In this document: in pieces, positions 219 to 64,000 of the stretch | Layout of the letters: every line of letters starts with the position of its first letter | Numbering within the stretch: the first letter of the stretch is position 1 | Assembly (NCBI GenBank): GCA_019218315.1 | Contig: JAHUUI010000001.1 | Location: 1-64,000, forward strand | Direction of reading: 5' to 3' | Length of the DNA stretch: 64,000 nt | Origin: Cardiobacteriaceae bacterium TAE3-ERU3 | Lineage (GTDB): Bacteria > Pseudomonadota > Gammaproteobacteria > Cardiobacteriales > Cardiobacteriaceae | The notes under the pieces: generated by a model | Told to the model about the DNA's origin: nothing | The model's input: only the letters and a program-made list of their open reading frames with translations | Database searches by the model: none | Program-made: the position numbers and the translations under genes

Positions 219-249
219 AGCGGGTTCACCCGACCTCTAGGAATGACTC

Positions 250-3200
250 ATGCGCAAAACCCTGCTGCTTCTCGCAGCACTGCTGTTTACCTCGCTTTGC
301 CTGACACTATCAGGCCATGCGCAGCAAGCGCAATACGCGGCTCCCATCGTAGATACCTCAGCGCAAATCGATACTTTGCGCAGCAGCATCAAGCAACGCG
401 AAGAAACGCTAAAAAAGGAGCGAGAACAACTCGCCGCCCTGCATGAGGAAATCAAAGCGGGTATTGATATAGGGCAAGTCGTTTCCCAGCAAGCACTCAG
501 CCAACAGCGCAGCCAACTTGAAGAAGCACAGGTTCATGGCGACAATCTACGCCTGCGCCTGCAAGAAATCACTAAGGACATTGAAGCCAACCGTCAATCA
601 CGTGAAGAACTCGATACGCTACTGCAAAAGCAATCCAACCCACTGGCATCCGGTGAAGGCAGTACTGAGAACGATATCGCCAATACCCGCCGTGATATCC
701 AGCGCAACGAAACCTACGCCGCACTGCTCGTCACCCAGCTCACCCAAATCAATCAAGCCATTGAGCTCAATGCCGCATGGAAAGAAGCCCTGGGCCAACG
801 CTATCGCGCCTACAACGAACACTACCTCGAACAAAACAGCACCGAAGATGGCCAACGCCCAGCCAAACTTAACAATACCGAACAACAAGCAGCGCTGACA
901 GCCGAACGCAACCGGCTCACGGCACGGCTTGAGTCCGGCAACATGAACACCAAGGCGCGCCTCGAAACCAACATCGCGATTGCCATCATTAACAAACAAA
1001 TCCTGTTTAACCGTCTGCTACGCGAAATTGACGGTATCGACAGTCGCCTGCAGGAAATGCAATTCGTCGATTACAGTACCGTGTCACTAGAGCGTATTGA
1101 GCGTGTACAGCAAGAAATCATCGACACCAGAGCACGCCTCTCCAGCGCCGACGCACAAATTGAACAAAACTACAGTGTCATCACCGAGCAATACGGCATG
1201 CTCACCAACCGTCAGGAAGCCATCCCGGAAAAGATATCCAACCGCTATACCGCAATGGAAAATCAATACCGTGATCTAAAAGAAGAAATCGAGCTCACTG
1301 TATCCAACCTCGATTTGCTTGCCAATAAAGTTGATAGCCAATATACCGAGCTGTCTGCCAATTACCTCAAGCAGCGCTTTGCATTCGGCGGCAATATTGA
1401 CGGAGTCCTCGACATTGCCGCGAACATTGGCGAAGCGTATGGTCTATTTGCCGGTCAGTACGTCGTTTCACTATCAACACTGAGTAATGCATTGCAGGAC
1501 ATGGAAAGCTTGCATTGGGCCATGCTGATCATCACCATGCTGATTGTCCTTGCAGCGACGATCCTGCTTACCATATGGATGAACCGCATTGTGCGCCGCT
1601 ATCGCCAAGACAGCCGCCTCGGTTTCACCAAGCGCCTATTGCTGTTCCTATTCGGCATGCTCAAATACAACCTCCCTTATATTGGCTTTTTCTGCCTCAG
1701 CTTGCTGCTGGTTTCCATCACCTCACTGCCTTCACCAAGCTACGGCTTGCTTTTACTGCCATCAATCGCCTTGCTGATGGTCTCGATTCCCTACTTTGCA
1801 ATGCGCATTCTGATTGACTCACGCCTGCTCGAAACCACAGATAACCTGCGCATTATCAACATCGTCGGTATTCTATCGGGCATTGGCAGTTTGCTATTCG
1901 TTCAAGTCATGCTCGCACAGTGGATTTTAAACGACAGCAACACCATCGACGCTTTCCGCTGGGTATTTGGTGCTTATATCGCTGCCATCAGCATTCCGAT
2001 GTGGCGATCTGTGATTAAGATGGTGCGCTTCCTCAATGAATATTATGCAGACTACTACGCCTACCGGATTCTACGCGTGGTCATCTTCATCATTCCAATC
2101 GGCACAACATTTTTTGGTATCGCCAGCCTGTTTGGCTACCTCAACTTCGCCTGGATCAACGCCGAATTTCTGCTTTATTTCTTGCTCATATCAGTAATTT
2201 GGATCGGCTTGCTTGCCGCCTTCAAAGATGCGTCACTGTGGGCAAAACGCTATGCCCTGCTCAATACCAATAACGGCGTTTTTTGGGCGCAAGACGTCAT
2301 CAATCCGCTACACACGCTGCTGCGCTACACCAGCCTAATTCTGCTCATTGAGCTACTGCTGTATATTTACGGCTGGAACAGCAATACCCCACTGATCAGC
2401 GATCTGCTTACCCTGCTCAACGATCCATTGCTCTCAAGCAGCAAAAACACCCAGTTTACCCTGATGAACTTCATCATCATGGGCGTCTTTATTTACTTCT
2501 CCTTCCGCATCGGCATTTGGATCAAATCCTTCGCCTACCGTCTGGTTTTCGGCAAAATTGCTGATCTCGGTATTCGGAACAGCCTTGCTGTATTCGGGCA
2601 ATATGCCGTCGTCACCCTAGGGCTTTTGATCGCCTTACGCGTCATTGGCATCGACTTAACCGCCTTCACCGTCTTTGCTGGGGCGCTCGGTGTCGGGATT
2701 GGTTTCGGCTTGCAAACCATCGCCAATAACTTCATCAGCGGCATTATTTTGCTCATTGAGCGCCCGCTGCGCAATGGGGACATTATTTCTGTTGGCGGCT
2801 ACGACGGTACAGTGGAGCGGATTGGTATGCGCTCTTTGACCATGACCACATTTAACAACGAAAGCGTCATACTGCCAAACTCGGACTTCGTCACCTCTGC
2901 CTTTAAGAACTGGTCACATACTGACCAAATCGTACGCGTCATTCTCTACTTTGACGTCAACTACCGCCATGATCCGGATCAAGTTGAAGCGGCACTCACC
3001 GCTGAGCTCACCGCCATGGTTGCCGCAGGAGAATTGTCGGAAATACCACCGGATATCATTAATCGCGCTTTTGCCTACAACTGTAGCGAACGCGGCATAA
3101 CCTACCGTATTCAATATTACTTCCACCTGCTCGACCACGACTTTTTTGGCACGCGCCATCAAGTCATCCGCCGCATGTGGGATGCCTGCCATAAAAACGG

Positions 3201-3318
3201 CTTCGAGATTGCTTATCCCAAGCAAGATCTCTTCTTCCCAGACCACCCGGATCAACTCGCGCATAGTGTACGCAGCTTGCCCGATTTTCGCGGCCATGAC
3301 GGTGGTCATCCGGGCTAA
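250..3318 (+). CDS. MscS-superfamily mechanosensitive channel, MscK/MscM (YjeP)-like
   Basis: A large inner-membrane mechanosensitive channel that would release solutes on osmotic downshock. Residues 1-24 form a Sec signal peptide with an AxA-type end (GHA). Residues about 28-390 are a charged, coiled-coil-rich periplasmic domain. A series of hydrophobic segments runs from about residue 419 to 800. The MscS pore helix follows near 805-830, with the Gly/Ala-rich GVGIGFGLQTIANN signature, then the cytoplasmic MscS beta and C-terminal domains to residue 1022. The length is close to E. coli MscK (1120) and YjeP (1107), so this is not a short MscS. An AGGA sits 7 nt before the ATG. The family assignment is firm; which of MscK or MscM is the true counterpart cannot be settled here. 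Confidence 0.9.
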   Translation: MRKTLLLLAALLFTSLCLTLSGHAQQAQYAAPIVDTSAQIDTLRSSIKQREETLKKEREQLAALHEEIKAGIDIGQVVSQQALSQQRSQLEEAQVHGDNLRLRLQEITKDIEANRQSREELDTLLQKQSNPLASGEGSTENDIANTRRDIQRNETYAALLVTQLTQINQAIELNAAWKEALGQRYRAYNEHYLEQNSTEDGQRPAKLNNTEQQAALTAERNRLTARLESGNMNTKARLETNIAIAIINKQILFNRLLREIDGIDSRLQEMQFVDYSTVSLERIERVQQEIIDTRARLSSADAQIEQNYSVITEQYGMLTNRQEAIPEKISNRYTAMENQYRDLKEEIELTVSNLDLLANKVDSQYTELSANYLKQRFAFGGNIDGVLDIAANIGEAYGLFAGQYVVSLSTLSNALQDMESLHWAMLIITMLIVLAATILLTIWMNRIVRRYRQDSRLGFTKRLLLFLFGMLKYNLPYIGFFCLSLLLVSITSLPSPSYGLLLLPSIALLMVSIPYFAMRILIDSRLLETTDNLRIINIVGILSGIGSLLFVQVMLAQWILNDSNTIDAFRWVFGAYIAAISIPMWRSVIKMVRFLNEYYADYYAYRILRVVIFIIPIGTTFFGIASLFGYLNFAWINAEFLLYFLLISVIWIGLLAAFKDASLWAKRYALLNTNNGVFWAQDVINPLHTLLRYTSLILLIELLLYIYGWNSNTPLISDLLTLLNDPLLSSSKNTQFTLMNFIIMGVFIYFSFRIGIWIKSFAYRLVFGKIADLGIRNSLAVFGQYAVVTLGLLIALRVIGIDLTAFTVFAGALGVGIGFGLQTIANNFISGIILLIERPLRNGDIISVGGYDGTVERIGMRSLTMTTFNNESVILPNSDFVTSAFKNWSHTDQIVRVILYFDVNYRHDPDQVEAALTAELTAMVAAGELSEIPPDIINRAFAYNCSERGITYRIQYYFHLLDHDFFGTRHQVIRRMWDACHKNGFEIAYPKQDLFFPDHPDQLAHSVRSLPDFRGHDGGHPG

Positions 3319-3351
3319 AAAAATGGCACATTGGAATAACCAATGTGCCAT
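3317..3351. terminator. Bidirectional terminator between convergent genes
   Basis: A perfect 12-bp stem, ATGGCACATTGG (3323-3334) with CCAATGTGCCAT (3340-3351), has a 5-nt loop. The run of seven A at 3317-3323 gives a U-tract when read on the minus strand, so it best serves the glutamate dehydrogenase-side transcript. It also ends the convergent channel gene, whose stop codon it touches. Confidence 0.8.
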
Positions 3352-3373
3352 ATCTTGTTGCTGACAAGCAGAA

Positions 3374-3670
3374 CTATTTTTTCTGCTTTTCTTTACGCTT
3401 TTTCTTGACCACTTTTTTCGCTTCCGATACTTGCAAGCGGCCTGAAATAAAGTCGAAGATCACATCACGTTTATTCCAGAAAAGGTTCTGCATCTTTTCT
3501 TCGGAATAAAGCTTTTTGACCATCATCGGCAAGCCGGCATGAATCATCTTCGCCACTTCGTTATTGTGCACTTCAATATCCATAGCCTCTTTTAAGGTCA
3601 AGCTATGCTTATTGAGATAGCTGTGCAGCTGGGTGCGTACACCCGGATTTATATCAAACTGCTTCATCAT
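3374..3670 (-). CDS. Small Lys-rich protein of unknown function downstream of gdh
   Basis: I do not recognise this 98-residue protein. The frame is open further upstream, but an AAGGAGG lies 8 nt before the ATG at 3670 (second Met at 3667), which decides the start. The product has no signal peptide or membrane segment. It looks helical in the middle and ends in a strongly basic tail (VVKKKRKEKQKK), which suggests nucleic-acid or ribosome contact. It begins 60 nt after the stop of the NAD-glutamate dehydrogenase gene on the same strand, with no terminator between them, and the shared terminator follows. Co-transcription is therefore likely. The ribosome-binding site and the operon position make it a convincing gene; its function is open. 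Confidence 0.75.
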   Translation of the reverse strand: MMKQFDINPGVRTQLHSYLNKHSLTLKEAMDIEVHNNEVAKMIHAGLPMMVKKLYSEEKMQNLFWNKRDVIFDFISGRLQVSEAKKVVKKKRKEKQKK

Positions 3671-3730
3671 GGTTTGCTCCTCCTTGAGCACAAGAATACC
3701 GGCAACAGGTAAGCTATTGCCGGTGATCAC

Positions 3731-6700
3731 TTAATGATCTGTCGCCAGCGCCGCAATTTCACCGAGTACTACAGAAAGTGTGGCAAGATCAGTGTCATCA
3801 CGATGATCCAGTTCCGTGACGGCACTATCCACGCGCTTGAGTAAACTACTGCGCGTTTCAGCCCAATCCTCGACCGGATGATCGCTCTCCTTCTCAAGCA
3901 GATTTTGTGCAATGGTACGCAAAGTCGCATAGAAGCTGTTCAGCAATGCACCACGTGCGCGGCGCTCCCAATAATTGCTCGCCGGCAATTGATTGATTTG
4001 CGCAAGTAGCCATTCACCGTTGAGGCGTCGCTGTACACTGAAATACACTTCTGCGACGTGCTCAAGTGATTGACCACTTTGCTCCGCAATCAATACCACA
4101 TCAAGCGCAGAGACAAATAACGGCAACGAGGCCAGTGCTTTAGCATTTTGCTCAGAAAAGCCGGCCTGCTCGAGCTGCTCTTGCTTGTCTGCAATCCGCT
4201 CAGCAAAATGTGCTGCAAGAGGGCCATCATCGCGAATCAATTGCTCAACACAGCCTTTAAAGCGCTCTGTCATCGCTTGAACGTCTATTGGTGTATTTAG
4301 GTTGCGTAAGAACCAGAAAATGGCACGTTCCAATACCTGACGCACACTGATCTCAGCCTCGATCTGAAGCTCCGCATCAACTTGATTGTCCATTGCCTCG
4401 ATCATCGCCCAGTAGCGACGAGCATGGAATACTTCGCGTGCCAAAGCATAGCAGCTGGCAATGACCGCAGCACCTTCACCTGTTTCTTCCACTGCACGGA
4501 AGACAAAACTGATGCCCATGCGATTAACCAGACTATTGGTCAGGTAAGTCGAGATAATCTCACGATGCAAGCGGTGATCCGGCATCACATCTTTAAAGCG
4601 CTCGCGCAGCGTTTCTGGGAAATAGCGCGGTAGTTCATTGATGAAATAAGGATTATCTGGCAGCTCAGACGCAAGTAAATGATCGTATACCCACATTTTT
4701 GCGTAGGCGAGCAGCACAGCCAACTCTGGATTGGTCAGGCCCTGATGATTTTTCAGGCGCATTTCTGCGTCGCTATCATCAGGCAAGTACTCAATTGCAC
4801 GGTCAAGGCGCCCTTCCTGCTCAAGCTGGCGAATAATACGCATGTAATCGGCCAGTTTCTGCGGTCGGTACGCACTCACTTCAATGGTCTGCGGTTGCAT
4901 GTAGTTTTGGCGCAGTACTAATGCCGCCACTTCATCAGTCATACTCGCCAGCAATTCATTGCGCTGCTTTTGGGTCATATCACCCTGTTCAACGATTTTA
5001 TTGAGCAGAATTTTGATATTGACCTCATGGTCCGAACAGTTCACACCACCAGAGTTATCAATAGCATCGGTATAGACACGACCACCGTTAAGCGCGTATT
5101 CAATGCGCCCACGTTGGGTCATGCCGAGGTTACCACCCTCACCAATTACCTTCGCACGAATATCGCAACCATTGACACGCAGCCCGTCATTGGCACGGTC
5201 ACCAACTTCGCTGTTTGCTTCCTCGCTGTGCTTAACGTAAGTACCAATACCGCCATTCCAAATCAGATCAACCGGTGCTTTGAGTAAGCGATTGATCAGC
5301 TGATTTGGGGTCAGTTTGTCTTCTTCAATGGCAAATGCTTCTTTCATCTCCGGCGTAATCGCCACGGATTTATCCTGACGTGAGAACACGCCACCGCCAG
5401 CACTAATCAGGCTCTCATCATAGTCAGCCCAGTTTGAGCGCGGCAATGCGAACAGGCGCTCACGCTCGGCATAAGAGGCTTCACAATCCGGATTAGGATC
5501 AATGAAGATATGCAGGTGGTTAAATGCGGCTTGCAAGCGGATTTTACGCGACAGCAACATACCGTTACCAAAAACATCGCCGCTCATATCGCCGATACCA
5601 ACCACGGTAAATTCATCCTGTTCCTGGATATCTTTGCCCATCATGCGGAAATGGCGCTTGACCGATTCCCACGCACCGCGCGCAGTAATACCCATGGCTT
5701 TGTGGTCGTAGCCTACCGAGCCACCAGATGCAAACGCATCATCGAGCCAAAAACCGTATTCTGCTGCGACGCCATTGGCGATATCAGAAAATGCTGCCGT
5801 GCCTTTATCAGCAGCGACAACCAGATAAGGATCATCCTCATCGTGGCGTACGGTATTTTCTGGTGCAACAATCTCACCTTCTACGAGGTTATCCGTAATA
5901 TCGAGCATGCCGCGAATGAAGGTTTTATAGCAGGCTTTACCTTCTTCCATAAATGCTTCGCGGCTGTCAGTCGGAGTTTTGACGATAAAGCCACCCTTTG
6001 AACCGACCGGTACGATTACCGCGTTTTTAACCATCTGCGCTTTGACCAAACCAAGAATTTCCGTACGGAAATCTTCCATCCTGTCAGACCAACGCAGGCC
6101 ACCACGGGCAACCTTACCACCACGCAAATGCACCGCTTCGACTTTCGGTGAATAGACGAAAATCTCGAACATTGGTCGTGGCTTAGGAAGTTCTTCAATC
6201 GTTGATGCGGCAAATTTGAATGACAAGCGATCTTTGCGGCTACCATCTTCTTCGCGCTGATAGAAATTGGTGCGCAATAGCGCATTGATCAGATTCAGGA
6301 ACCAACGCAGAATACGGTCTTCATCGAGACTCTTGACCTGTGCAAGCTGGTTTTCAATATCCTTACAAACTGACTTCACGGCTTCCTCGCGCCCTGCGCT
6401 TTGCTCAGGATCCATGCGCAAGTGGAACAGCTTGACCAGCGCAACTGTAATATCCCGGTTTTGATTTAGCGTTTGCTGAATGTACTCGCTTGAAAATGGT
6501 GCGCGCGCCTGCAGCATATAGCGCGACAAAGCACGTAAAATAACGACATCATCAACATTAAGCTCAGTAGTCAAAACCAATTCATTAAAGCGATCGCTCT
6601 CAACTTCACCATTCCAGACTCGGTGTAAGCTTTCTTCAACTTGGCTACGCACCATAGCCATATCCACAGCTTTGGCATTGCGCAGATACAGATCGTATTC

Positions 6701-8524
6701 CTGCATCCACAGTTTATGCCCATCTTCAAGATTGAATTCATAAGGGAATGCGGCTGACACAGCAACGCCGAAATCTTCAAGAATCGGCAACACATTAGAC
6801 AGCGAAGCTTGCTTGCCATAACCATACATTTTGAGGTGCAACTGATCGCTGCTTTCCCCAGCTGACTGATAGAGGTACAAAGACAACGGCTCTGCTTCAT
6901 TGAGCTGGTCAAGCCTGCATGTGTCTTTAACTGCGGTGCGCGTCGAATAAGTATCACGATAAGCCGCTGGCAATGCATCAGCAAAGCGGCGCAGCAAGCG
7001 ATTTCCTTCAGCCTCACCCATCGCTTCGATCATATCTTGCTGGTAATCGTCATTCCAGTCGTGCATTGCTTCAATCAAGCGCTCTTCAAGTGCCTGATTA
7101 TCAAACTGCTTGATCGCACCTGGCGTAGTGCGTACATGCACATGGAGGCGTGCGTGATGCACTTCGTTAAACTGAGTCGAAAACTCTGACGAAATACCAC
7201 CAAAGGCATCCAGTAAAATTTCTTGGAATTTCAGGCGCAATTGCGTATTGAATTTTGCCCTTGGCACGTAAATCAAGCACGAAACGAAGCGCTGATAATG
7301 GTCAATACGGGTAAACAGGCGCAAGCGCTTTTTATCGTGTAAATGCAAAATACCCATTGCCATTGGATAAAGCTCATCAATATTAGCCTGGAATAAATCA
7401 TCACGCGGCAACGTATTGAGGACATGAAGCATTTTTTTATAAGCATGGCCATTTTTAGGCAAACCTGCACGCTCCAATACTTGATCGGCTTTTTCACGCA
7501 AAAGCGGAATTTGATTGACTGTCAGCTGGTAAGCAGATGCGGTCAGCAATCCGATAAAGCGGTACTCGCCAATAACGTTACCCTGATCATCAAAACGCTG
7601 AATGCCAAGGAAATCCATATATGCAGCACGGTGAACTGGTGAAATATGGCTTGATTTGGACAACAACAATACCTGAGGCTCAAGCAACATACGCTTGAGT
7701 TCTGAAGGCAGCTCACTAAAACTCTTTGAGCGCTTGTCTTCACCATCATCCTCAAGCATGCCAAGCCCACTACCACCGGCGATATACAATTCCAGATCAT
7801 CCTGATTGTGCTCAACACGGTACTCACGGAAGCCTAGGAATGTGAAATTACCGTTGAGGATCCAGTCAATAAAAGCAAGTACTTCACCTTTATCAAAAGA
7901 CTCATTAGGCAAATTAGAGTGTTCGAGCTCCTTTTTGATGGCTTCAAGCCGATCATGCATAGGCTGCCAATCACGAACCACAACATCGAGAAGGTTAATT
8001 TTCTCAAGAAGCTCACGCTTGATCGCACTCAGCTCTTTTTCATCTATCTGGCGATCAACCTCGCAATACATTACTGACAAGTACTTTGCATCACTACTCT
8101 GTACAGAATCGATACTCATCAGCTCGCCATGCTCATCACGCTCTACATGGACGATGGTATGTAACAAGCGATGCATGGCCAATCCACGAGCTTCCAAGCA
8201 CATCATCAGCGTATCAACCAAAAACGGACGATCGCGCACAACCATTTGGATGACAGTGTGTGGCGTATGGAAATGCTCTTCTTCGACTGAAGGATTAAAG
8301 ACGCGAATTTGAGGTGCGCTGCCATCGTACGCCTTGACCAAGGCAAAATGGGTCAGCAGTACACCAGCAAGATCAACATCATTCATGCTATCTGCTTGAT
8401 CGTCAGGCAATTGATCAAGATATGGATGAGCAAAGTTTTCCAAAAGTCCCAAATCTTTTTTAGGCACATATTTCCCAGCTTGCGCAACAATCGCCGCAAA
8501 CCGTTTTTCAAATGACTCGGACAT
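3731..8524 (-). CDS. gdhB: NAD-specific glutamate dehydrogenase, large (180-kDa) class
   Basis: This enzyme oxidatively deaminates glutamate to 2-oxoglutarate and ammonia with NAD+ (EC 1.4.1.2) and is usually catabolic. The 1597-residue length is typical of the large bacterial class (Bac_GDH family). An N-terminal regulatory half of roughly 700 residues is followed by the catalytic core. The core shows GGLRWSDR near residue 810, the glycine- and lysine-rich VKNAVIVPVGSKGGF stretch, and the later cofactor-domain motif VGIGDMSGDVFGNGM. The frame is open to 8536, but GGAG placed 5 nt before the ATG at 8524 favours that start (MSESFEKRF). It is first in an apparent two-gene unit with the small Lys-tailed gene. 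No frameshift is seen. Confidence 0.95.
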   Translation of the reverse strand: MSESFEKRFAAIVAQAGKYVPKKDLGLLENFAHPYLDQLPDDQADSMNDVDLAGVLLTHFALVKAYDGSAPQIRVFNPSVEEEHFHTPHTVIQMVVRDRPFLVDTLMMCLEARGLAMHRLLHTIVHVERDEHGELMSIDSVQSSDAKYLSVMYCEVDRQIDEKELSAIKRELLEKINLLDVVVRDWQPMHDRLEAIKKELEHSNLPNESFDKGEVLAFIDWILNGNFTFLGFREYRVEHNQDDLELYIAGGSGLGMLEDDGEDKRSKSFSELPSELKRMLLEPQVLLLSKSSHISPVHRAAYMDFLGIQRFDDQGNVIGEYRFIGLLTASAYQLTVNQIPLLREKADQVLERAGLPKNGHAYKKMLHVLNTLPRDDLFQANIDELYPMAMGILHLHDKKRLRLFTRIDHYQRFVSCLIYVPRAKFNTQLRLKFQEILLDAFGGISSEFSTQFNEVHHARLHVHVRTTPGAIKQFDNQALEERLIEAMHDWNDDYQQDMIEAMGEAEGNRLLRRFADALPAAYRDTYSTRTAVKDTCRLDQLNEAEPLSLYLYQSAGESSDQLHLKMYGYGKQASLSNVLPILEDFGVAVSAAFPYEFNLEDGHKLWMQEYDLYLRNAKAVDMAMVRSQVEESLHRVWNGEVESDRFNELVLTTELNVDDVVILRALSRYMLQARAPFSSEYIQQTLNQNRDITVALVKLFHLRMDPEQSAGREEAVKSVCKDIENQLAQVKSLDEDRILRWFLNLINALLRTNFYQREEDGSRKDRLSFKFAASTIEELPKPRPMFEIFVYSPKVEAVHLRGGKVARGGLRWSDRMEDFRTEILGLVKAQMVKNAVIVPVGSKGGFIVKTPTDSREAFMEEGKACYKTFIRGMLDITDNLVEGEIVAPENTVRHDEDDPYLVVAADKGTAAFSDIANGVAAEYGFWLDDAFASGGSVGYDHKAMGITARGAWESVKRHFRMMGKDIQEQDEFTVVGIGDMSGDVFGNGMLLSRKIRLQAAFNHLHIFIDPNPDCEASYAERERLFALPRSNWADYDESLISAGGGVFSRQDKSVAITPEMKEAFAIEEDKLTPNQLINRLLKAPVDLIWNGGIGTYVKHSEEANSEVGDRANDGLRVNGCDIRAKVIGEGGNLGMTQRGRIEYALNGGRVYTDAIDNSGGVNCSDHEVNIKILLNKIVEQGDMTQKQRNELLASMTDEVAALVLRQNYMQPQTIEVSAYRPQKLADYMRIIRQLEQEGRLDRAIEYLPDDSDAEMRLKNHQGLTNPELAVLLAYAKMWVYDHLLASELPDNPYFINELPRYFPETLRERFKDVMPDHRLHREIISTYLTNSLVNRMGISFVFRAVEETGEGAAVIASCYALAREVFHARRYWAMIEAMDNQVDAELQIEAEISVRQVLERAIFWFLRNLNTPIDVQAMTERFKGCVEQLIRDDGPLAAHFAERIADKQEQLEQAGFSEQNAKALASLPLFVSALDVVLIAEQSGQSLEHVAEVYFSVQRRLNGEWLLAQINQLPASNYWERRARGALLNSFYATLRTIAQNLLEKESDHPVEDWAETRSSLLKRVDSAVTELDHRDDTDLATLSVVLGEIAALATDH

Positions 8525-11661: not shown

Positions 11662-12843
11662 TCACAGCGTAAAGTTGAACAAGATGCCATCTTTGATGGC
11701 TGCATCACGCAGCGCCGAATTTGATGGCAGTGGCAAAGGTGATGCAGACATAATTGCATTACGCGCACTACTGTCAAACAATGGATAACCGCTGGACTTC
11801 GATAACTTCACATCCGTTACCTTACCTTGAGCATTAATCTTAATCACAAATTTAGCACTAAGATTGCTCGGAATATTTGCCGGAACACTGTAATAACGTT
11901 TGACAACGGAAAGTAGCGTTGCCGAATAAGCATCAACATCGCCCTGACCATAACCGGGAACAGCTGACTGCAAGCCATCCAAAGAAGGTGTGCCGACGTT
12001 AAGGCTGGCAAGCTTGGCCTCCGCTTCACGCGCTTCTTTGGCTTTACGCTCAGCTTCTGCTTTGGCCTTTGCCTCTGCTTCAGCCTTGGCTTTGGCTTTG
12101 GCTTCCACCTCAGCTTTCTTCTTCGCTGCTTCTTCCTCAGCTTTCTTTTTCGCAGCCGCTTCGGCTTCTGCTTTGCGCTTCGCCTCTTCGGCCTTCTTGC
12201 GCTCAGCCTCTTTTTTGCGCTCTGCTTCCGCAGCAGCTTTTTGCTTAGCTTCTTCAGCGCGGCGCTGCTCCTCAGCCTTCTTGCGCTCTGCTTCCTGTTT
12301 GGCCTGTTCTATCTTGCGTTGTTCTTCGGCTTTGCGTTTTTCAGCCTCAATACGCTTCGCCTCAGCCGCCTTTCTGGCCGCTTCTTCTGCTTGCCTTTTG
12401 GCTTCAGCCTTCCGGCGAGCCTCTTCTTGGCGACGCAGTTCCTCACGCCGTTTTTCTTCTGCAATTCGGCGCAAACGCTCTTCTTCAAGGCGCTGCTTTT
12501 CCTTCATCTCAAAATCAATATTATTCATTGTGAGATCAAGTGATGCTCCGTCAATCGCATACACACCGGATGTTGGCAATTTCTGGTCCGTTTCCGTGTA
12601 TTCAGCCTCAACAGGCATCACCGGATTAGCAGACAAATCCGGCTCGGGAAGTGACTCAGGATCTTCTGTCACTGCGCTACTCTCAGGTGTTGGCTGTGCA
12701 GCCGATGCCGGTAGTCCGATCATGGACATATCGACAAAGCGGCCAAGCAGGAAAATCAACGCCAGCAGCAATAACCCCAGCAGTGCAAACGCACCACCGA
12801 TAATGTTTTCCCAAAAATGGCGAAACGCTTTGCGTTTACTCAT
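11662..12843 (-). CDS. tolA: TolA, inner-membrane to outer-membrane coupling protein
   Basis: The energised arm of the Tol-Pal system. One N-terminal transmembrane helix (about residues 14-36) anchors it in the inner membrane. Residues about 110-275 are a long Ala/Lys/Glu-rich helical stalk with many KAEEE and KAEAE blocks, and residues about 290-393 are the globular TolA-C domain with a TonB-like SSGYPLFD segment. The ATG overlaps the tolR stop by 4 nt, which implies translational coupling. The stalk is so biased that the antisense strand reads as a long artificial Ser/Ala frame. Confidence 0.92.
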   Translation of the reverse strand: MSKRKAFRHFWENIIGGAFALLGLLLLALIFLLGRFVDMSMIGLPASAAQPTPESSAVTEDPESLPEPDLSANPVMPVEAEYTETDQKLPTSGVYAIDGASLDLTMNNIDFEMKEKQRLEEERLRRIAEEKRREELRRQEEARRKAEAKRQAEEAARKAAEAKRIEAEKRKAEEQRKIEQAKQEAERKKAEEQRRAEEAKQKAAAEAERKKEAERKKAEEAKRKAEAEAAAKKKAEEEAAKKKAEVEAKAKAKAEAEAKAKAEAERKAKEAREAEAKLASLNVGTPSLDGLQSAVPGYGQGDVDAYSATLLSVVKRYYSVPANIPSNLSAKFVIKINAQGKVTDVKLSKSSGYPLFDSSARNAIMSASPLPLPSNSALRDAAIKDGILFNFTL

Positions 12844-13289
12844 TGCTCGCCTGCATCAGGAGAAGTCGCTATACCCACAGCTTCGATGCCGTTTTTGCGC
12901 AATTCGAGCACCAAATCAAGTAAAGCATCATACGTCACACGTCGATCACCGCGCACAATGACTGGCAGTTGTGGGTACTGTTGGCGCAAAGTTGCTGCAC
13001 GCAATACAACTTCAGTCTCACTGCGCCCTTCATCACTACCATCATTAATAAAGTAATTGCCGTTTTCATCAATCGTCAGCACTAATGGCTGTTGGCCTTC
13101 AGGCAGCCCGTCCGGCATTTCAAATGCTTCTCCTGGCGCAACCGGTAACTGCACTTCGACCGTCTGATTAATTAGCGGTGCCGCAATCATAAAAATAACT
13201 AAAAGCACCAGCATGACGTCGATATACGGCACAACGTTCATCTCTGCTTTTACTCGCCGACCACGCCGGCTACGACGCAACTTCATCAT
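12840..13289 (-). CDS. tolR: TolR, ExbD-family proton-channel subunit
   Basis: With TolQ it forms the proton-driven motor that energises TolA. It has a basic N-terminus and a single transmembrane helix at about residues 21-43 containing the functional Asp (MNVVPYIDVMLVLLVIFM). A periplasmic ExbD-fold domain follows. At 149 residues it is the usual length. Its two adjacent ATGs overlap the tolQ stop, and its own stop overlaps the tolA start, so the three are translationally coupled. Confidence 0.95.
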   Translation of the reverse strand: MMKLRRSRRGRRVKAEMNVVPYIDVMLVLLVIFMIAAPLINQTVEVQLPVAPGEAFEMPDGLPEGQQPLVLTIDENGNYFINDGSDEGRSETEVVLRAATLRQQYPQLPVIVRGDRRVTYDALLDLVLELRKNGIEAVGIATSPDAGEQ

Positions 13290-13981
13290 GGCTTAGAGAG
13301 TTTTTCGCGGGCGGTAAGGATTTGGCGCTGCAATACATTGGCAAATTCTTCAATAAAAGCCTCGTATTCAACGGCCAAGCGCTCGGATTTACCAATAAAA
13401 AAGTTATATGCCAACACTGATGGAATTGCTGCCAACAAACCAATTGCTGTCGCGATCAAGGCCTCTGCAATACCCGGTGCAACGCTGGCAATGCTTGCCT
13501 GCTGATTACTCCCGCCAAGAGCAATAAATGAATTCATGATCCCGTAGACCGTGCCTAACAAACCAATATAAGGCGCAGATGAGCCAAACGTGGCGAGCAT
13601 ATTGAGTGATTTTTCTTGTCGCGTACATTCGCGAGAATAAGCAGCTTCCATCGCGCGGCGACAATTACCCACAATCACATCAGGCTGATTCAGATGGCTT
13701 GATTTAAAATGTTTGAACTCACGGAATCCTTCCGTAAACATACGCTCAATGCATTCCGCATCACGCTCAAGATAATGCTCATAGAGCTTTTGCAAATCTT
13801 TACTGTGCCAGAATGCCTGAGTAAAGCGCCTGACCTTGCGTTGCAAGCGATCAAACTGAACCCATTTTTTCCCGGTAATGAACAGCGTCAGTAAGAACAT
13901 GCCAAACAGCACTGCCATCAGCACCTGCACAAACAGGCTGGCCTGACCAATCAAATGAGGAATCGATAATCCGCTGTGCAA
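13286..13981 (-). CDS. tolQ: TolQ, MotA/ExbB-family proton-channel subunit (TTG start)
   Basis: The inner-membrane scaffold of the TolQR motor. Three transmembrane regions are seen: about residues 12-35, then a pair at about 132-160 and 167-200. The ExbB family signature lies around GLLGTVYGIMNSFIALG and IAEALIATAIGLLAAIPSV. The only start that keeps the first helix is TTG at 13981. It has AGGGAG 6 nt upstream, and no ATG or GTG alternative is available before residue 23. A rare start may keep TolQ low relative to the stalk protein, though that is inference. It is the first tol gene; ybgC, often found just upstream in enterics, is absent. Confidence 0.92.
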   Translation of the reverse strand: MHSGLSIPHLIGQASLFVQVLMAVLFGMFLLTLFITGKKWVQFDRLQRKVRRFTQAFWHSKDLQKLYEHYLERDAECIERMFTEGFREFKHFKSSHLNQPDVIVGNCRRAMEAAYSRECTRQEKSLNMLATFGSSAPYIGLLGTVYGIMNSFIALGGSNQQASIASVAPGIAEALIATAIGLLAAIPSVLAYNFFIGKSERLAVEYEAFIEEFANVLQRQILTAREKLSKP

Positions 13982-18108: not shown

Positions 18109-19029
18109 TTACGGCAGTTCATCAACAACTTCCTTCTGCTTCGGTAACAAATCTTCATGGCGTACCCCAAGGGTATCAACCAATGAACTTGCCACGAAAA
18201 TAGACGAATACGTCCCGAAAACGACACCAAAGATCAGTGCAGCTGCAAAACCAAACAGTGTTTCGCCGCCAAAGATCAGCAGTGCCAATACCGCAAGCAA
18301 TGTGGTCAAGCCAGTGACGATGGTACGCGCCAAAGTCTGGTTCACCGAGATATCGATGATATGACGCGGCGTCTCATTACCAAGCTTGAGAAAGTTTTCA
18401 CGAATACGGTCATAGACGACCACCGTATCGTTAACCGAATAACCAAGCACTGCAAGCAGCGCGGCGAGTACCGTGAGGTCAAATGTCCACTGCGTCAGTG
18501 CAAACAAGCCGGCTGTAACGATAACATCGTGAATCTGTGCGACCACGGCACCAACAGCAAACTTCCATTCAAAGCGCAAGCTCAAGTAAACGATCATACC
18601 GATACTGGCAAAAATGAACGCCGTGATGCCTTTCTCAATCAGCTCAGCTTTATACTGACCACCAATTTTTGCTTGCCCAAGTAGTTTGATTTCTGGCTCT
18701 TGTGCACGCAAGGTAGAGACGATCTCACCCATCGTGTCGTCACTGCTGATGCCTTCTTTCTCGGCAAAACGGATCTGTACATCACGAGATGAACCGTACT
18801 GCACCACAGTTGCATCAGGGTGGATCTCATCAACCATACGGCGAATTTCTGGAATATTGGCCGTGTTTGGATATTGCAGCTCAATGGTGGCACCACCAGT
18901 AAACTCAAGACCAAAATTAAAACCACGCACCAAAATCAAGATGATACATGCAGTCGTCAGGATCGCCGAGAATAGCAGGCCTTTGCGGCCATACTTCATA
19001 AACGGAATAAATGGCAGATTAAATTTCAT
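18109..19029 (-). CDS. secF: Protein translocase subunit SecF
   Basis: With SecD it forms the proton-driven RND-type accessory that pulls preproteins through SecYEG on the periplasmic side. It has a first transmembrane helix near residues 18-36, the periplasmic P1-like domain starting GLEFTGGATIELQY, and five further helices with the SVNDTVVVYDRIREN signature. The length is 306 residues. GAGG precedes the ATG by 5 nt. It starts 7 nt after secD. Confidence 0.96.
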   Translation of the reverse strand: MKFNLPFIPFMKYGRKGLLFSAILTTACIILILVRGFNFGLEFTGGATIELQYPNTANIPEIRRMVDEIHPDATVVQYGSSRDVQIRFAEKEGISSDDTMGEIVSTLRAQEPEIKLLGQAKIGGQYKAELIEKGITAFIFASIGMIVYLSLRFEWKFAVGAVVAQIHDVIVTAGLFALTQWTFDLTVLAALLAVLGYSVNDTVVVYDRIRENFLKLGNETPRHIIDISVNQTLARTIVTGLTTLLAVLALLIFGGETLFGFAAALIFGVVFGTYSSIFVASSLVDTLGVRHEDLLPKQKEVVDELP

Positions 19030-58600: not shown

Positions 58601-58632
58601 TAATCTATTCACACCCATGTGTGGCGGGCGAC
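58601..58632 (-). repeat. Decayed leader-distal CRISPR repeat
   Basis: This 32-nt stretch matches the array's 32-nt repeat at 23 positions, with its last eight bases (CGGGCGAC on the plus strand) intact. It is followed by a 34-nt spacer-like segment (58633-58666) before the first good repeat. Spacing and length show that it is the worn-out end of the array. Confidence 0.75.
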
Positions 58633-58666
58633 GAGACGTCAGATCGATTGCTTTGATCACAGTCTG

Positions 58667-59358
58667 GTTTCAATTCGCGCCCGCGTGAACGGGCGACCCA
58701 CGATTGAGCAGGCGCAACAGAGTCGAGCCTTTGTTTCAATTCGCGCCCGCGTGAACGGGCGACGTTGACGACGGACTGATTCTATTTCCAAATTAAGTTT
58801 CAATTCGCGCCCGCGTGAACGGGCGACTAAATTATAGGCGTAATTTTACAGTTTTACGCCAAGTTTCAATTCGCGCCCGTGTGTAACGGGCGACTCACCG
58901 CCAGTACGCCACGTTTGATGCCATTTCAGTTTCAATTCGCGCCCGTGTGTAACGGGCGACCTCTCGACGCGGCGAGTTACTAGCTAAAGCAAAAGTTTCA
59001 ATTCGCGCCCGTGTGTAACGGGCGACTCGAGTATTATTTGTCTGGGGGCTGGTTATTTCCTGTTTCAATTCGCGCCCGTGTGTAACGGGCGACGAGCCAG
59101 GTGTGCTGTTGCGTTACCAGTTTCGTCGTTTCAATTCGCGCCCGTGTGTAACGGGCGACTGTTTTGCTCATGTCTGGTGATATATTTTCATCAACGTTTC
59201 AATTCGCGCCCGTGTGTAACGGGCGACCCACGACAATGATGCAGACAACCCACGTGAGTGGGTTTCAATTCGCGCCCGTGTGTAACGGGCGACATTTAAC
59301 TTCCTCGACTTTCCAGTCGTCAGTACGTTTCAATTCGCGCCCGTGTGTAACGGGCGAC
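58667..59358 (-). CRISPR. Type I-C CRISPR array, 11 repeats, 10 spacers
   Basis: Repeats start at 58667, 58733, 58797, 58863, 58929, 58995, 59062, 59128, 59196, 59262 and 59327. On the transcribed (minus) strand they begin GTCGCCCG and end GAATTGAAAC, the type I-C form, with a CGCCCG/CGGGCG stem. The first three (leader-distal) are 31 nt; the other eight are 32 nt. Within each group they are identical. The two groups differ by one substitution and one inserted base in the hairpin loop. Spacers are 33-36 nt and all different. Transcription from a leader at the cas2 side is indicated by repeat orientation, gene order and the decayed far end. Spacer targets are unknown. Confidence 0.98.
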
Positions 59359-59543
59359 TGCCATCGCTAAATGGCTTGCTGTATCAGGTCGTAAAGCGGT
59401 TTATTCGCTAACCGACGCTGATACGAAGCAAATATTATGTCCAGTTGTTAAAGATCATGCAAATTATTGAAAAATTTTGCGTTAGTGTTTCGCCAATCTA
59501 CCGGTAAAACAATGAGAACCTACGGTTAGCGATTGCCCGCTAG
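59359..59543 (-). promoter_or_regulatory. CRISPR leader with candidate promoter and IHF-like site
   Basis: 185 nt between cas2 and the newest repeat. On the minus strand TTGCAT (59457-59462), a 17-nt spacer and CATAAT (59434-59439) form a possible promoter about 70 nt before the first repeat. TTTCAATAATTTG (complement of 59460-59472) differs from the IHF consensus at one position. A perfect 10-nt inverted repeat, TCGCTAACCG (59405-59414) and CGGTTAGCGA (59523-59532), brackets these elements. Confidence 0.7.
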
Positions 59544-59837
59544 CTATATAATCAATGGATCACGAAATAAATCAAATCCGGCTTTGGCACCGTGGTGTTC
59601 GACTTTCTTTTGCCATTTACTGCCCAGTTGATAGAAGCGTAAGCTATCGGTTTCGGGATTGTATTCGTCGAGTAAAGCTGCTTTAAGTTTTACCCATTGT
59701 GCCGGTGTGATCTCACATTCAAATACAGAATATTGCACCCGCTGACCGTAATCCTGACAGCATTTGGCAATACGGCGCAAGCGCTTGGCGCCCTCCGGGT
59801 CTTCAAATGAAACGTCATACGTAATCAGTACCATCAT
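59544..59837 (-). CDS. cas2: CRISPR-associated endoribonuclease-fold protein Cas2
   Basis: A 97-residue Cas2 with a ferredoxin-like fold; MMVLITYDVSFED carries the conserved Asp. With Cas1 it forms the spacer-integration complex. It ends at the leader, and its start lies 9 nt after the cas1 stop on the same strand. The middle segment YGQRVQYSVFECEIT is typical of the family. It is last in the order cas8c-cas7-cas4-cas1-cas2. Confidence 0.96.
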   Translation of the reverse strand: MMVLITYDVSFEDPEGAKRLRRIAKCCQDYGQRVQYSVFECEITPAQWVKLKAALLDEYNPETDSLRFYQLGSKWQKKVEHHGAKAGFDLFRDPLII

Positions 59838-59846
59838 AAACGTTAC

Positions 59847-60866
59847 CTATCGCATCAAAAACGGGGGATAACAGGCAAGATCACCACGAAGATGCCGCGC
59901 CAATAGTTGTGCCTGTATGTGGGGCAACAGGCCAATCTCAACTTCTTCTTCGAGATATGGGTGTTGTATTTTTTCTTGCTTGCGCATTTGCAACGCCTGA
60001 AACAAGGCTTTACGACTGTCGTCTTTAAGTTCAACCGCGCCACTGGCAGCGTAGATAAAGTCTTTGTCTGCAAATTGACCACGATTGAGCATACTGATCA
60101 CCATACGGTCAATCCACCACGCGCGGAACTCTTCCAAAATATCCTGAGCGAGGCTGTCTCTGCCCGGACGGTCTGCATGTAGGAATCCGACTTGTGGATC
60201 CAATCCGACACCTTGCAACGCCCCACTGATTTCTTTGCCAACTATGCTATACAGCAATGACAACATGGCGTTAATCGGGTCACGCGGCGGGCGGCGATTA
60301 CGCCCATTAAAATCAAATTGTTGGCGGGTTTTGTCGGTTAGCAGATAACGGAAGACGGCAAAGTATTGTGCAGCTGCATCACCTTCAATACCGCGAACCT
60401 GATCAATATGATCGGCACTTTGTAACTTTTTCAGTGATGCATTGAGCTGACGGATGGCGATAGTGACGTCTTCATGTGCACCATGATTACGCTGTCGCCG
60501 TTGTAAAACACGCCGCGCCGACTGAATTTTTGCGGCAATGATATTGCGCGCGATGTCCAGCGGTGCTTCTGCTGATATGCGATATTGCGCACGCCGCAAA
60601 AGCACATTACCACTTTGCCGCCCTTGTAACCTGCCGAGGAACTTGCCATATTCACTATAAAAAGCCAGATTAACCTGATTCTCTCCACAAAACCCGAGTA
60701 AATATGGCGAGACCAATACGTTGCCGAAGCAAAAGATGTTGGCGATCGCATGTACTGGCAACTGGATAAGCTTTTTGCGCTCGCATTCTACGACCAGCGT
60801 CTCACGCTCTTTGTGCAAATAGCAGCCTTGCCTAGTGATATAGAGCGTATTCTGTAATTTACGCAT
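59847..60866 (-). CDS. cas1: CRISPR integrase Cas1 (type I-C)
   Basis: A 339-residue integrase. The N-terminal beta domain spans about residues 1-85 (LQNTLYITRQGCYLHKE). The catalytic helical domain has E161 in RGIEGDAAAQYF, H230 in VGFLHADRPGRDSLAQ, and D242/E245 in QDILEEFRAW as metal ligands. PINAMLSLLYSIVG is a typical segment. It lies between cas4 and cas2 with a few bases of spacing on each side. All catalytic residues are intact, so adaptation could be functional. Confidence 0.97.
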   Translation of the reverse strand: MRKLQNTLYITRQGCYLHKERETLVVECERKKLIQLPVHAIANIFCFGNVLVSPYLLGFCGENQVNLAFYSEYGKFLGRLQGRQSGNVLLRRAQYRISAEAPLDIARNIIAAKIQSARRVLQRRQRNHGAHEDVTIAIRQLNASLKKLQSADHIDQVRGIEGDAAAQYFAVFRYLLTDKTRQQFDFNGRNRRPPRDPINAMLSLLYSIVGKEISGALQGVGLDPQVGFLHADRPGRDSLAQDILEEFRAWWIDRMVISMLNRGQFADKDFIYAASGAVELKDDSRKALFQALQMRKQEKIQHPYLEEEVEIGLLPHIQAQLLARHLRGDLACYPPFLMR

Positions 60867-60871
60867 AACGG

Positions 60872-61483
60872 CTACTCGATATTAAACAGCGCAGCCACAT
60901 AGGCTTGGCTGTGATCATTGGCGATTTCTTGTGGCTGGCAGGCGTCAATCAACGAGCAGGCTTTGCAATGTTTGCCATAAACCGGTGCGGGTGTGTGCCC
61001 CGATTCAAGCATGGTACGAACATCAGCAATAATCGCACGGGTTGTATCGCGCAAGCGCTGACTCAGCAACACGGATTCACGCCGCCGCGTTTGCCCATAC
61101 CAAATCACACCTTCATCAATCTTCACGCCACACATTTCTTCAAGGCATAATGCCTGTGCGCAGAGTTGCACGCTGTCTGAGTCGTCTGCTTTCTTGCGTC
61201 CACGTTTGTATTCGACCGGTTTTAGCGCATCGCTTACCGTATTCACTTCAAGCAAATCGAGTTTACCAATCAAACCCAATGCTTGCGAGGATACCGCCAC
61301 ACCACGCTCATAGCGGATACCTTTGCGCGTTTCGGGTACGCCACTGTCGACCCTTTCATGCAGTATTCTGCCTTGTGCGGTTAAAAAGTTTTCTGCCCAC
61401 AACTGCTCGTTGTGAATCAACGCACATTGTCGCGGGCAAAAAGCGTAGTGCCGCAAGGCTGATAATGCAATCGCATCCATCAT
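60872..61483 (-). CDS. cas4: CRISPR-associated exonuclease Cas4
   Basis: A RecB-type nuclease with an iron-sulfur cluster, which trims prespacers and selects for a PAM in type I-C adaptation. C16 and C20 in YAFCPRQCAL, with the C-terminal CKACSLIDAC, form the cluster. The nuclease core shows LIGKLDLLE and PVEYKRG, plus QLCAQALCLEE. The length is 203 residues. It lies 6 nt before the cas1 start and 6 nt after the cas7 stop. Confidence 0.95.
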   Translation of the reverse strand: MMDAIALSALRHYAFCPRQCALIHNEQLWAENFLTAQGRILHERVDSGVPETRKGIRYERGVAVSSQALGLIGKLDLLEVNTVSDALKPVEYKRGRKKADDSDSVQLCAQALCLEEMCGVKIDEGVIWYGQTRRRESVLLSQRLRDTTRAIIADVRTMLESGHTPAPVYGKHCKACSLIDACQPQEIANDHSQAYVAALFNIE

Positions 61484-61489
61484 GGATAC

Positions 61490-62362
61490 TTACAGCTTTT
61501 CAATCACCTCAACACCTTGTGCCTGCAAATCAGCCTGACCTTCAATGCTAATCCGATAATCGTCAAATCCGCTTGCCGGTGTGTTGGCTTCACCGTTGAC
61601 CCGCTCGACCTGTACCGCATCAAACAGCTTGTGCGCGGGTAAGTTCCCCAGTGCATCCTTGTGCTTGAAGACGATGAGCTTGCGCGCACTCATTTCACCA
61701 CGCGCCGCAGAGTGATCGTGCTCGAACATCAGCTGTAATGCCTGCCACAACTTGTCCAGATCCGCTTCGGAAAAGCCGGTCTTTTCTGCCAGCTTGGCCG
61801 ATACAAAGCCATGCGCGCGGTATAGACCATAAGGCACAATATGCTTGCGTCCCATGGTGCGCTCTTTTTCAAGGTCTTTTTCGTTGGTCACCGCCATACG
61901 TGTTATCGATATTTCCAGCGGAATAATTGGATCGATAGACTGGGCAAAGGCAAGCTGCACAGGTCCGCGCACTTGACCGCTATTTACTTCTGTCGTCATC
62001 ACCGCACCAAAGGTACGTACGTCAAAAAAGTTCTGGCACATCCATGCAGTAACTTCGCGCGCCTTTTGTTCGTCTTTGGGCAATTTTTTCGCAACCGGCT
62101 CGATATCCAATGCCTCATAAGCGCGCTTATTCTGCAAATTGAGTACGCTTTTTTCCTTGACGTAGATTTCATAACCGGGCGTATTTTCTTCGCTCATTTC
62201 AATGAAATTGCGAATTTTGCGCTTGAGGCAAACGTCCGTAACCAGTCCCTTGCTGGACTCAGGATCAAGGCGTGGCATATTGCCCGCATCAGGATCGCCA
62301 TTGGGATTGCCGTTCTTTACATCAAAGAAAAAGACAAATTCATAACGGTTTGCAATACTCAT
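61490..62362 (-). CDS. cas7c: Type I-C Cascade backbone protein Cas7 (Csd2)
   Basis: A 290-residue RAMP-fold subunit that coats the crRNA. The N-terminus [20 protein letters not shown] and the following [20 protein letters not shown] are Csd2 hallmarks. The ATG overlaps the end of cas8c by 4 nt, so the two are translationally coupled. cas4 follows 6 nt later. Confidence 0.96.
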
Positions 62363-64000
62363 GATCCACTCTCCTCATCTAAATTATCCAAGTCCAATTC
62401 ATCAATATTTTCAACCAGATTATCTGGTGCTTTCTTACTTCTACCAAAACGCTCAAGATAATAGCCAATCGCAAAACGCCCTTGCTCAGACAAATCCATT
62501 GTTTTAGGGAAGAAAAATTCAGCATCGCCCTCATTACCACAATTTACGATATCCCCAAATTCAGTTTCTAACCATCCTGCCATATTCTTAGGGTTCTCTA
62601 TCCACTTTGCTTTTTTCCCTTTACATAAGTCAGCTATATGATGATGATAATTCTTTATTAATAATGGGAAAACAGACTCTGGTCGCGCAGAAGCGCTCCC
62701 ATAAAAACGCGTTTTTATACCAGCATTAATATCCCCCAATGCCGAGTTTTGCGCCATTTCTAACACGGCAAACAGCCGCCCCAGCCGATAGGCAATATCC
62801 TTTGTTTCTCGATCCAAAGCCATAGAAATATTCTCCCCTTTATTGCGTACTAAAATCGCTTTAATCATTGCTACCCGCAACGGACTGACCTCTCCATCCG
62901 CGCGCAAGCGACTGACAATCTTGCTCAGTAACGACAGCGGATACGGCTTGCCACTGATCACGGCACGCATCAGTTCACCGGCCAAATGTGGCGATATATC
63001 CTTGCTGTCCGATTTTTTCAGCTGCCCATTGGCATCACGCCGCTTGGGCACCGTTTCAATCAACAAGCGCCATACCGAAGGCAGCGTTCGCCACGGTACA
63101 GGATCAAGCATTAAATCGTTATAGTGGGCGGCAAAATGGCGGGTAAGCTGAATCAAATCGGTTGCTAACCAGAAACGAATTGAAATCCGCGCTGCATTGG
63201 GCGCCAAGCCCAGCACATAGCATTGGGTATCGGGATCAAGATCAGGGCGCAGTTTGCTCAATGGTTGCCCTTCTGCCAAGCGTTGCAAAAATACCGATAG
63301 CTGCTGATTTTCAGCGTCATCATCCGGCGGGCTCATCACTTCGGCAAATAAATCTTCCGCGGCTTCGGCCTGCACAGCATCATCTGCAACCGCCCAAAAC
63401 ACCGTACTGGCATCACCAATACTGACGCACTGGCCATGATCGCGATTGAGCAAATAATTCAGTGCGGTTGTGTAGGCAAAAGCCGTTGAAGCTGAAACCG
63501 GTGCGTTTTCACCCTGTGATTTACCGTAAGACTCAAACGCATCCTGATTAAATGACACAATCGAGCCACCGGACGACTGCCCGCCCCATACGCCTTTAAT
63601 CGCCGGATGAACCCTTGCTACCGCAGCAGATTGCCCATCCAAACACGGTACGGCTTCACCTTCACCACGATCGAGATATGCCGCCCAAATGGCTTGTGCT
63701 GCCGGGCGCTGATGCAAGTAGTCCATATCACCATCAAGTCGAAACACAACATTGGCATCGACCACCTCAAGCGGGCAAACCGATTCGGCAAATCGCCCCG
63801 GTTGCCAACGCTGCAAAAATGCCTTGAACGCCTGCAAACCTGCATCATCATTGTCTTCTAGCAATTCAAGGTGCCAGTCGCGGAAGGCTTCAAAGGTTTC
63901 ACGGTAGGCAGTCACCCACGGCGTTTCCTTGGCTGCCTTTTTATCCTTGTTACCTTCAATACCCAGCGTATAGGCGGTTTTATCCCACAAAAAATTGGGC
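62359..64000 (-). CDS. cas8c: Type I-C Cascade large subunit Cas8c (Csd1), cut by window end
   Basis: The frame stays open to the end of the window. The TTG near 63990 is not a real start, so the N-terminus lies beyond 64000. About 547 residues are visible of the usual 570-620. The Csd1 signatures [12 protein letters not shown] and the following [14 protein letters not shown] are clear, as are FWAVADDA and [15 protein letters not shown]. In type I-C this protein recognises the PAM, and its C-terminal part doubles as Cas11c by internal initiation. cas5 and cas3 are expected upstream, beyond the window. Confidence 0.95.

Follow-up and report, generated by a model that had tools for sequence, protein, structure and literature searches.

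The window, a stretch of 64,000 nucleotides from Cardiobacteriaceae bacterium TAE3-ERU3, ends in a CRISPR-Cas locus whose array, leader and cas genes are all read on the minus strand, with the following features.

58601 to 58632, minus strand: decayed terminal repeat, strongly supported as 32-type (23/32 matches; likelihood ratio for a 32-type parent)
58633 to 58666, minus strand: oldest spacer, 34 nt, a normal spacer size
58667 to 58827, minus strand: three identical 31-nt repeats and two spacers (array calling)
58828 to 58862, minus strand: boundary spacer of 35 nt between the 31-nt and 32-nt blocks
58863 to 59358, minus strand: eight identical 32-nt repeats and seven spacers (array calling)
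59359 to 59543, minus strand: leader region, from the array to cas2 (aligns with the leader of the related array L043, with an identical junction GCGACTGCCATC)
59544 to 59837, minus strand: cas2 (TIGR01573, E 2.4e-17, above cut-off)
59847 to 60866, minus strand: cas1 of type I-C (TIGR03640, 477 bits against a cut-off of 385)
60872 to 61483, minus strand: cas4 (TIGR00372, above cut-off)
61490 to 62362, minus strand: cas7 (csd2; TIGR02589, above cut-off)
62359 to 64000, minus strand, continuing beyond the window end: cas8c (csd1; TIGR01863)

Beyond the window, cas8c is followed by cas5c and cas3, also with open frames (locus L110), so that the operon cas3-cas5c-cas8c-cas7-cas4-cas1-cas2 is complete and intact with its reading frames open. 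The genes cas1, cas7, cas8c and cas5c exceed the curated cut-offs of type I-C models, and cas4, cas2 and cas3 exceed those of general models. The repeat fits the type I-C pattern in its length of about 32 nt, its short stem, its ATTGAAAC 3' end and the position of the array beside cas2, and similar repeats occur in arrays near other I-C cas genes; no Rfam match reached the gathering score in the array region. The array belongs to type I-C and is in itself complete and ordinary. In another genome of the family (G002, Cas1 73% identical; locus L043) the array ends in the identical GCGACTGCCATC at the leader junction, and the 31-nt block is therefore leader-distal. The polarity given by an earlier sequence-only reading was thus right, with cas2 adjoining the 32-nt end and the leader common to the related array, and array calling bore out its coordinates, repeat lengths, repeat sequences and the uniformity of both repeat groups.

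The three leader-distal repeats of 31 nt (58667 to 58697, 58733 to 58763 and 58797 to 58827) are identical to one another, as are the eight repeats of 32 nt on their leader side, which start at 58863, 58929, 58995, 59062, 59128, 59196, 59262 and 59327. Sequence variation within either set is zero, resulting in one uninterrupted run of identical copies per repeat type, of three and eight copies. On the plus strand the types differ as GCGTGAAC in the 31-type and GTGTGTAAC in the 32-type. The array's spacers, 11 including the oldest, are 33 to 36 nt long, and neither a hybrid repeat nor any other scar is present at the block boundaries. The boundary spacer, where the repeat type switches, carries the inverted repeat GGCGTAA...TTACGCC.

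Both types are predicted to fold on the minus strand into an identical stem of eight pairs, at -12.7 and -13.1 kcal/mol. The extra base of the 32-type sits in the predicted loop, and the substituted base is a partner in the pair that closes it, U-A in the 32-type and U-G in the 31-type. Of the earlier claim that insertion and substitution both lie in the loop, the insertion holds in this fold and the substitution does not, belonging instead to the loop-closing pair; the further claim that stem and crRNA handle are unchanged agrees with the same pair count and handle in both types.

We detected a twelfth repeat at 58601 to 58632, overlooked in the sequence-only reading and separated from the first 31-nt repeat by the 34-nt oldest spacer. 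An ungapped comparison with the 32-type gives 23 matches in 32 positions and nine differences; shuffling the 150-nt flank 20,000 times never produced 23 matches (maximum 21), and elsewhere in the window, with the array excluded, no site reached 21 against the 32-type. The full 32-type length and the TGTGT of that type are both retained. A pair-HMM run at five indel rates (indel-to-substitution ratios of 0.4 to 0.02) favoured the 32-type at all of them, with likelihood ratios of 158 to 2509 in a test that weighs only the 31-type and the 32-type as parents; omitting the ten distal bases gave ratios of 245 to 3756 for a 32-type parent. Assignment of the terminal repeat to the 32-type is strongly supported by this comparison, and a third, unseen parent of 32 nt would still leave the 31-type departing from an older 32-nt state. 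From oldest to newest, the order is very likely one 32-type repeat, three of the 31-type and eight of the 32-type, so that one type flanks a block of the other on both sides, with the first 32 read from the decayed copy.

Other arrays were surveyed in a census of 74 loci, with a single array called per locus, that gave 55 arrays and 1,659 repeat copies. Its loci came from this window, two family members, Cas1c-positive genomes of the class, Cas8c-positive genomes of the phylum and 11 pattern loci. Cas1c matched 33 of 369 class genomes, and 32 of these loci were taken (own genome omitted); Cas8c matched 31 of 397 phylum genomes, and 28 of 32 places were taken, leaving aside the own genome, two genomes already included and one place at a contig edge. 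The census loci are not all independent, L016 and L024 both coming from a single contig and L019 and L129 apparently from the same genome. Contig ends truncate several of the arrays, the L138 call does not represent a proper array, and L107 was read on the wrong strand with its counts unaffected (77 identical copies). Thirteen of the 55 arrays have repeats of 37 to 38 nt and probably belong to another subtype. Such repeats of another kind were found in 10 of the 23 arrays near matches to the type I-C Cas1 model (L078, L080, L081, L085, L087, L091, L093, L100, L104 and L107), and the model seems to reach a second subtype.

Copies of deviating length occurred in 11 of the 55 census arrays, and a run of at least two identical ones in this window only (1/55). 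In each of the other ten, every off-length sequence is single and never appears twice consecutively; L079 has two adjacent off-length copies, of 32 and 35 nt, that are unlike each other. Such lone copies are as expected from mutations arising after acquisition. Apart from this window, three arrays (L119, L016 and L091) carry two alleles, each in runs. In L119, the terminal repeat has GGAAATCC in common with its two nearest copies, after which come 26 copies bearing GGAAGTCC, and in L015, whose polarity was taken from the repeat strand alone, a weak terminal repeat (22/32) has one older base in common with the next copy; these two patterns indicate that terminal repeats can report an old allele. 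An A-B-A order through a single substitution, in three, two and then 16 copies, is found in L016 (a Verrucomicrobia contig, reverse complement of 6633 to 7975), its polarity likewise read from the repeat strand alone. The alleles of L091 differ only in the last repeat base, and their order is mixed. In the leader-proximal third of this array (reverse complement of 12696 to 13408, 37-nt repeats) that base is C, A, G or T, which suggests that it is not always copied along with the repeat.

We looked for relatives of the locus and for arrays with the same repeats in whole-genome collections that hold one genome per species. The only other genome of the genus gave no cas1 match, and no array was seen downstream of its ffh gene. 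Within the family, six of 12 genomes had Cas1 matches: this genome, G002 and G004 (72 to 73% identity), and three that were weak or partial. In G002 the array repeats are 32 nt long and come in two loop variants, and no array was called in the stretch of G004 examined. The variants in G002, GCGTGG and GCATGG, likewise do not fall in a simple order; some 2.6 kb of other DNA interrupts its array (L043, 15492 to 18969), in which a second decayed repeat lies at 18279. A Cas1 scan of GTDB species-representative contigs and viral contigs confirmed nothing. In the own genome, 16 bases of the conserved part of the repeat have 11 exact sites, all inside this array, and 20 further scattered sites with up to three mismatches, against 22 for a reversed-pattern control; these exact and three-mismatch pattern scans found no second array with this repeat. 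Exact-pattern scans found neither repeat type in the 84,980 GTDB species representatives or in IMG/VR. The same stem with any middle of 5 to 9 nt occurs in 11 stretches of the GTDB species representatives, neither of this array's middles being among them, and the CGTGAA of the 31-type middle recurs at L086, a locus of another genome in the class, within a repeat that is likewise 31 nt long. In type I-C, the PAM adjoining protospacers is TTC. With the array as query, searches of phages and plasmids up to E = 1 gave no protospacer match, and exact seeds of 18 to 21 nt from three of the 11 spacers found none in IMG/VR.

We suggest that the repeat type of this array changed twice, from the 32-type to the 31-type for three copies and then back to the 32-type for eight, with the return brought about by recombination with another array; we give this history a probability of roughly 0.6. 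Each new repeat would be copied from the leader-proximal one, so that the allele at that position passes to all later repeats. The claim of leader-proximal copying made in the sequence-only reading gains support as the explanation for the identity of the three copies and of the eight, there being no such off-length run in the ten other arrays; since no off-length sequence repeats consecutively in those arrays, three identical 31-mers in a row need copying. With the oldest repeat of the 32-type, the 31-type would be an interlude, having originated within or been brought into a lineage that already carried a 32-type repeat as its oldest. The 32-type may then have been regained by homologous recombination with a different array in the same population, one in which that type had persisted, and this event would either have swapped the leader side or inserted a short 31-type block. 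Fusion or recombination of arrays, the first of which had been offered earlier as the alternative, becomes the better explanation given a 32-type terminal repeat, and recombination between arrays of one population best explains the return, because a return by mutation needs the same insertion at the same place together with the same substitution. Weighing against this history are the block boundaries, free of any hybrid repeat or scar, the reliance on a single terminal repeat decayed at nine of its 32 positions, and the scans for a donor, which gave no second array in the own genome and no exact match to either repeat in the GTDB species representatives or IMG/VR.

True back-mutation would turn the leader-proximal repeat from 32 to 31 nt and, after three acquisitions, back to the 32-type. 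It requires no donor array, and none was found in the own genome, the GTDB species representatives or IMG/VR; that both differences must be restored makes it quite unlikely. The history originally proposed, in which the 31-nt repeats are the older and one altered leader-proximal repeat gave rise to all the 32s, involves the fewest switches once the terminal repeat is set aside, and it accords with uniform blocks and a sharp boundary, with the CGTGAA middle shared with the 31-nt repeat of L086 and with the propagation of repeat mutations documented in parts of PMC2886076 and PMC4869251. It is contradicted by the 32-type terminal repeat, whose resemblance would have to come from independent decay matching both the extra base and the substitution by chance, 158 to 2509 times less likely, and we consider it unlikely. 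In a simple two-generation array the terminal repeat should belong to the older type, as it does in the control L119; here it is of the leader-proximal 32-type. The sequence-only reading had itself named interleaved repeat types in related strains as evidence against it, and the order 32-31-32 comes close to such interleaving within this very array.

Exchange could also have affected the old end, a single crossover from a 32-type array having supplied the terminal repeat and oldest spacer, with the change from 31 to 32 at the leader end a simple spreading mutation. Crossovers between the repeats of two arrays are plausible at any position, and this sequence of events fits both the two-block layout and the terminal-repeat likelihoods, but it is rather unlikely in needing an exchange and an independent two-change mutation that gives the same type. 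Assembly or sequencing error is very improbable: two changes are common to three copies and absent from eight, every copy adjoins its own unique spacer, and the array lies inside a contig of 740 kb.

Recombination between repeats, as in our preferred history of a return from another array, is documented in parts of PMC8047081 and PMC7056967. In passages of the latter (Deecker and Ensminger 2020), a Legionella type I-F array reduced to its last repeat was refilled in the laboratory with repeats of that type, and some natural Legionella type I-F arrays fit such a history of collapse and refilling. The likeness is that recombination between repeats changes the type, which acquisition then propagates; the Legionella model, as described there, makes all repeats the type of the last one, whereas here the repeats adjoining the terminal one are of the other type. 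We rejected array collapse and replenishment for this locus: the three repeats nearest the terminal one are of the other type, and none equals it. For Escherichia and Salmonella, the relevant part of Touchon and Rocha 2010 (PMC2886076) interprets stretches of variant repeats as a sign that a new repeat is templated by its neighbour. Runs of variant repeats are common to those arrays and this one; what sets this one apart is that its variant has another length and that its blocks follow the order 32-31-32. Passages of CRISPRDetect (PMC4869251) describe repeat insertions, deletions and substitutions that propagate into new repeats; the return to an older type and the type I-C case go beyond them. 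In Streptococcus agalactiae, the internal repeat variants listed in the pertinent part of PMC4466440 are substitutions, with no bearing on length.

The two repeat types also bear on how the length of a new repeat is set. Next to the three 31-nt copies stand three different bases (G, T and A), and therefore exactly 31 bp were duplicated; the first base is kept in all 32-nt copies. Two fixed-distance rules were rejected: with a second cut fixed 32 bp from the leader, the 31-nt copies would carry one common adjoining spacer base, and with one fixed at 31 bp the 32-nt copies would be without their first base, which none is. In these repeats, the second cut of type I-C integration seems to move with a length change in the loop at mid-repeat, and the differing bases G, T and A support the earlier suggestion that the adaptation machinery tolerates such a change. 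Because both lengths are copied exactly, the second integration cut would be set by a motif towards the spacer side of the repeat and not by a fixed distance from the leader.

Comparable behaviour has been described in type II-A, where, in the passages of Kim 2019 (PMC6895254) on this point, the second cut is displaced when bases are inserted or deleted leader-side of a ruler motif, and the new copy keeps the altered repeat's length; in vivo work on types I-E and I-B is cited there for the same behaviour. The same source reports some in vivo cutting at the old fixed position for engineered type II-A repeats with central indels, and exact copying can therefore be accompanied by other outcomes. 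That study and the work cited in those passages concern engineered repeats in types II-A, I-E and I-B, whereas the present pair is natural and of type I-C. By the logic of Kim 2019, as set out in these passages (PMC6895254), we infer from this one array that a type I-C ruler motif may lie in the spacer-side half of the repeat. More tentatively, at somewhat less than even odds, the array may record a natural length-control experiment, in which the leader allele passed from 32 to 31 and back to 32 by exchange between coexisting arrays while the same kind of adaptation complex duplicated both exactly. We found no comparable length-control result for type I-C in the mainly open literature searched, which included parts of the adaptation paper PMC6519985.

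Propagation of repeat variants, including indels, is already known from passages of PMC2886076 and PMC4869251. This array is a clean, somewhat unusual case, of interest for its 32-31-32 order and for the faithful duplication of repeats of either length; what is new is modest, a naturally occurring test of how repeat length is controlled in type I-C. Within an array, variant repeats serve as time stamps, and neighbouring blocks need not be consecutive generations. An old repeat type can come back, and the terminal repeat thus deserves the first check. If our reading of the length pair is true, the ruler for the second cut in type I-C would lie in the spacer-side half of the repeat, leaving loop length free, and the 31/32 pair offers a simple, testable case for how type I-C integration measures the repeat.
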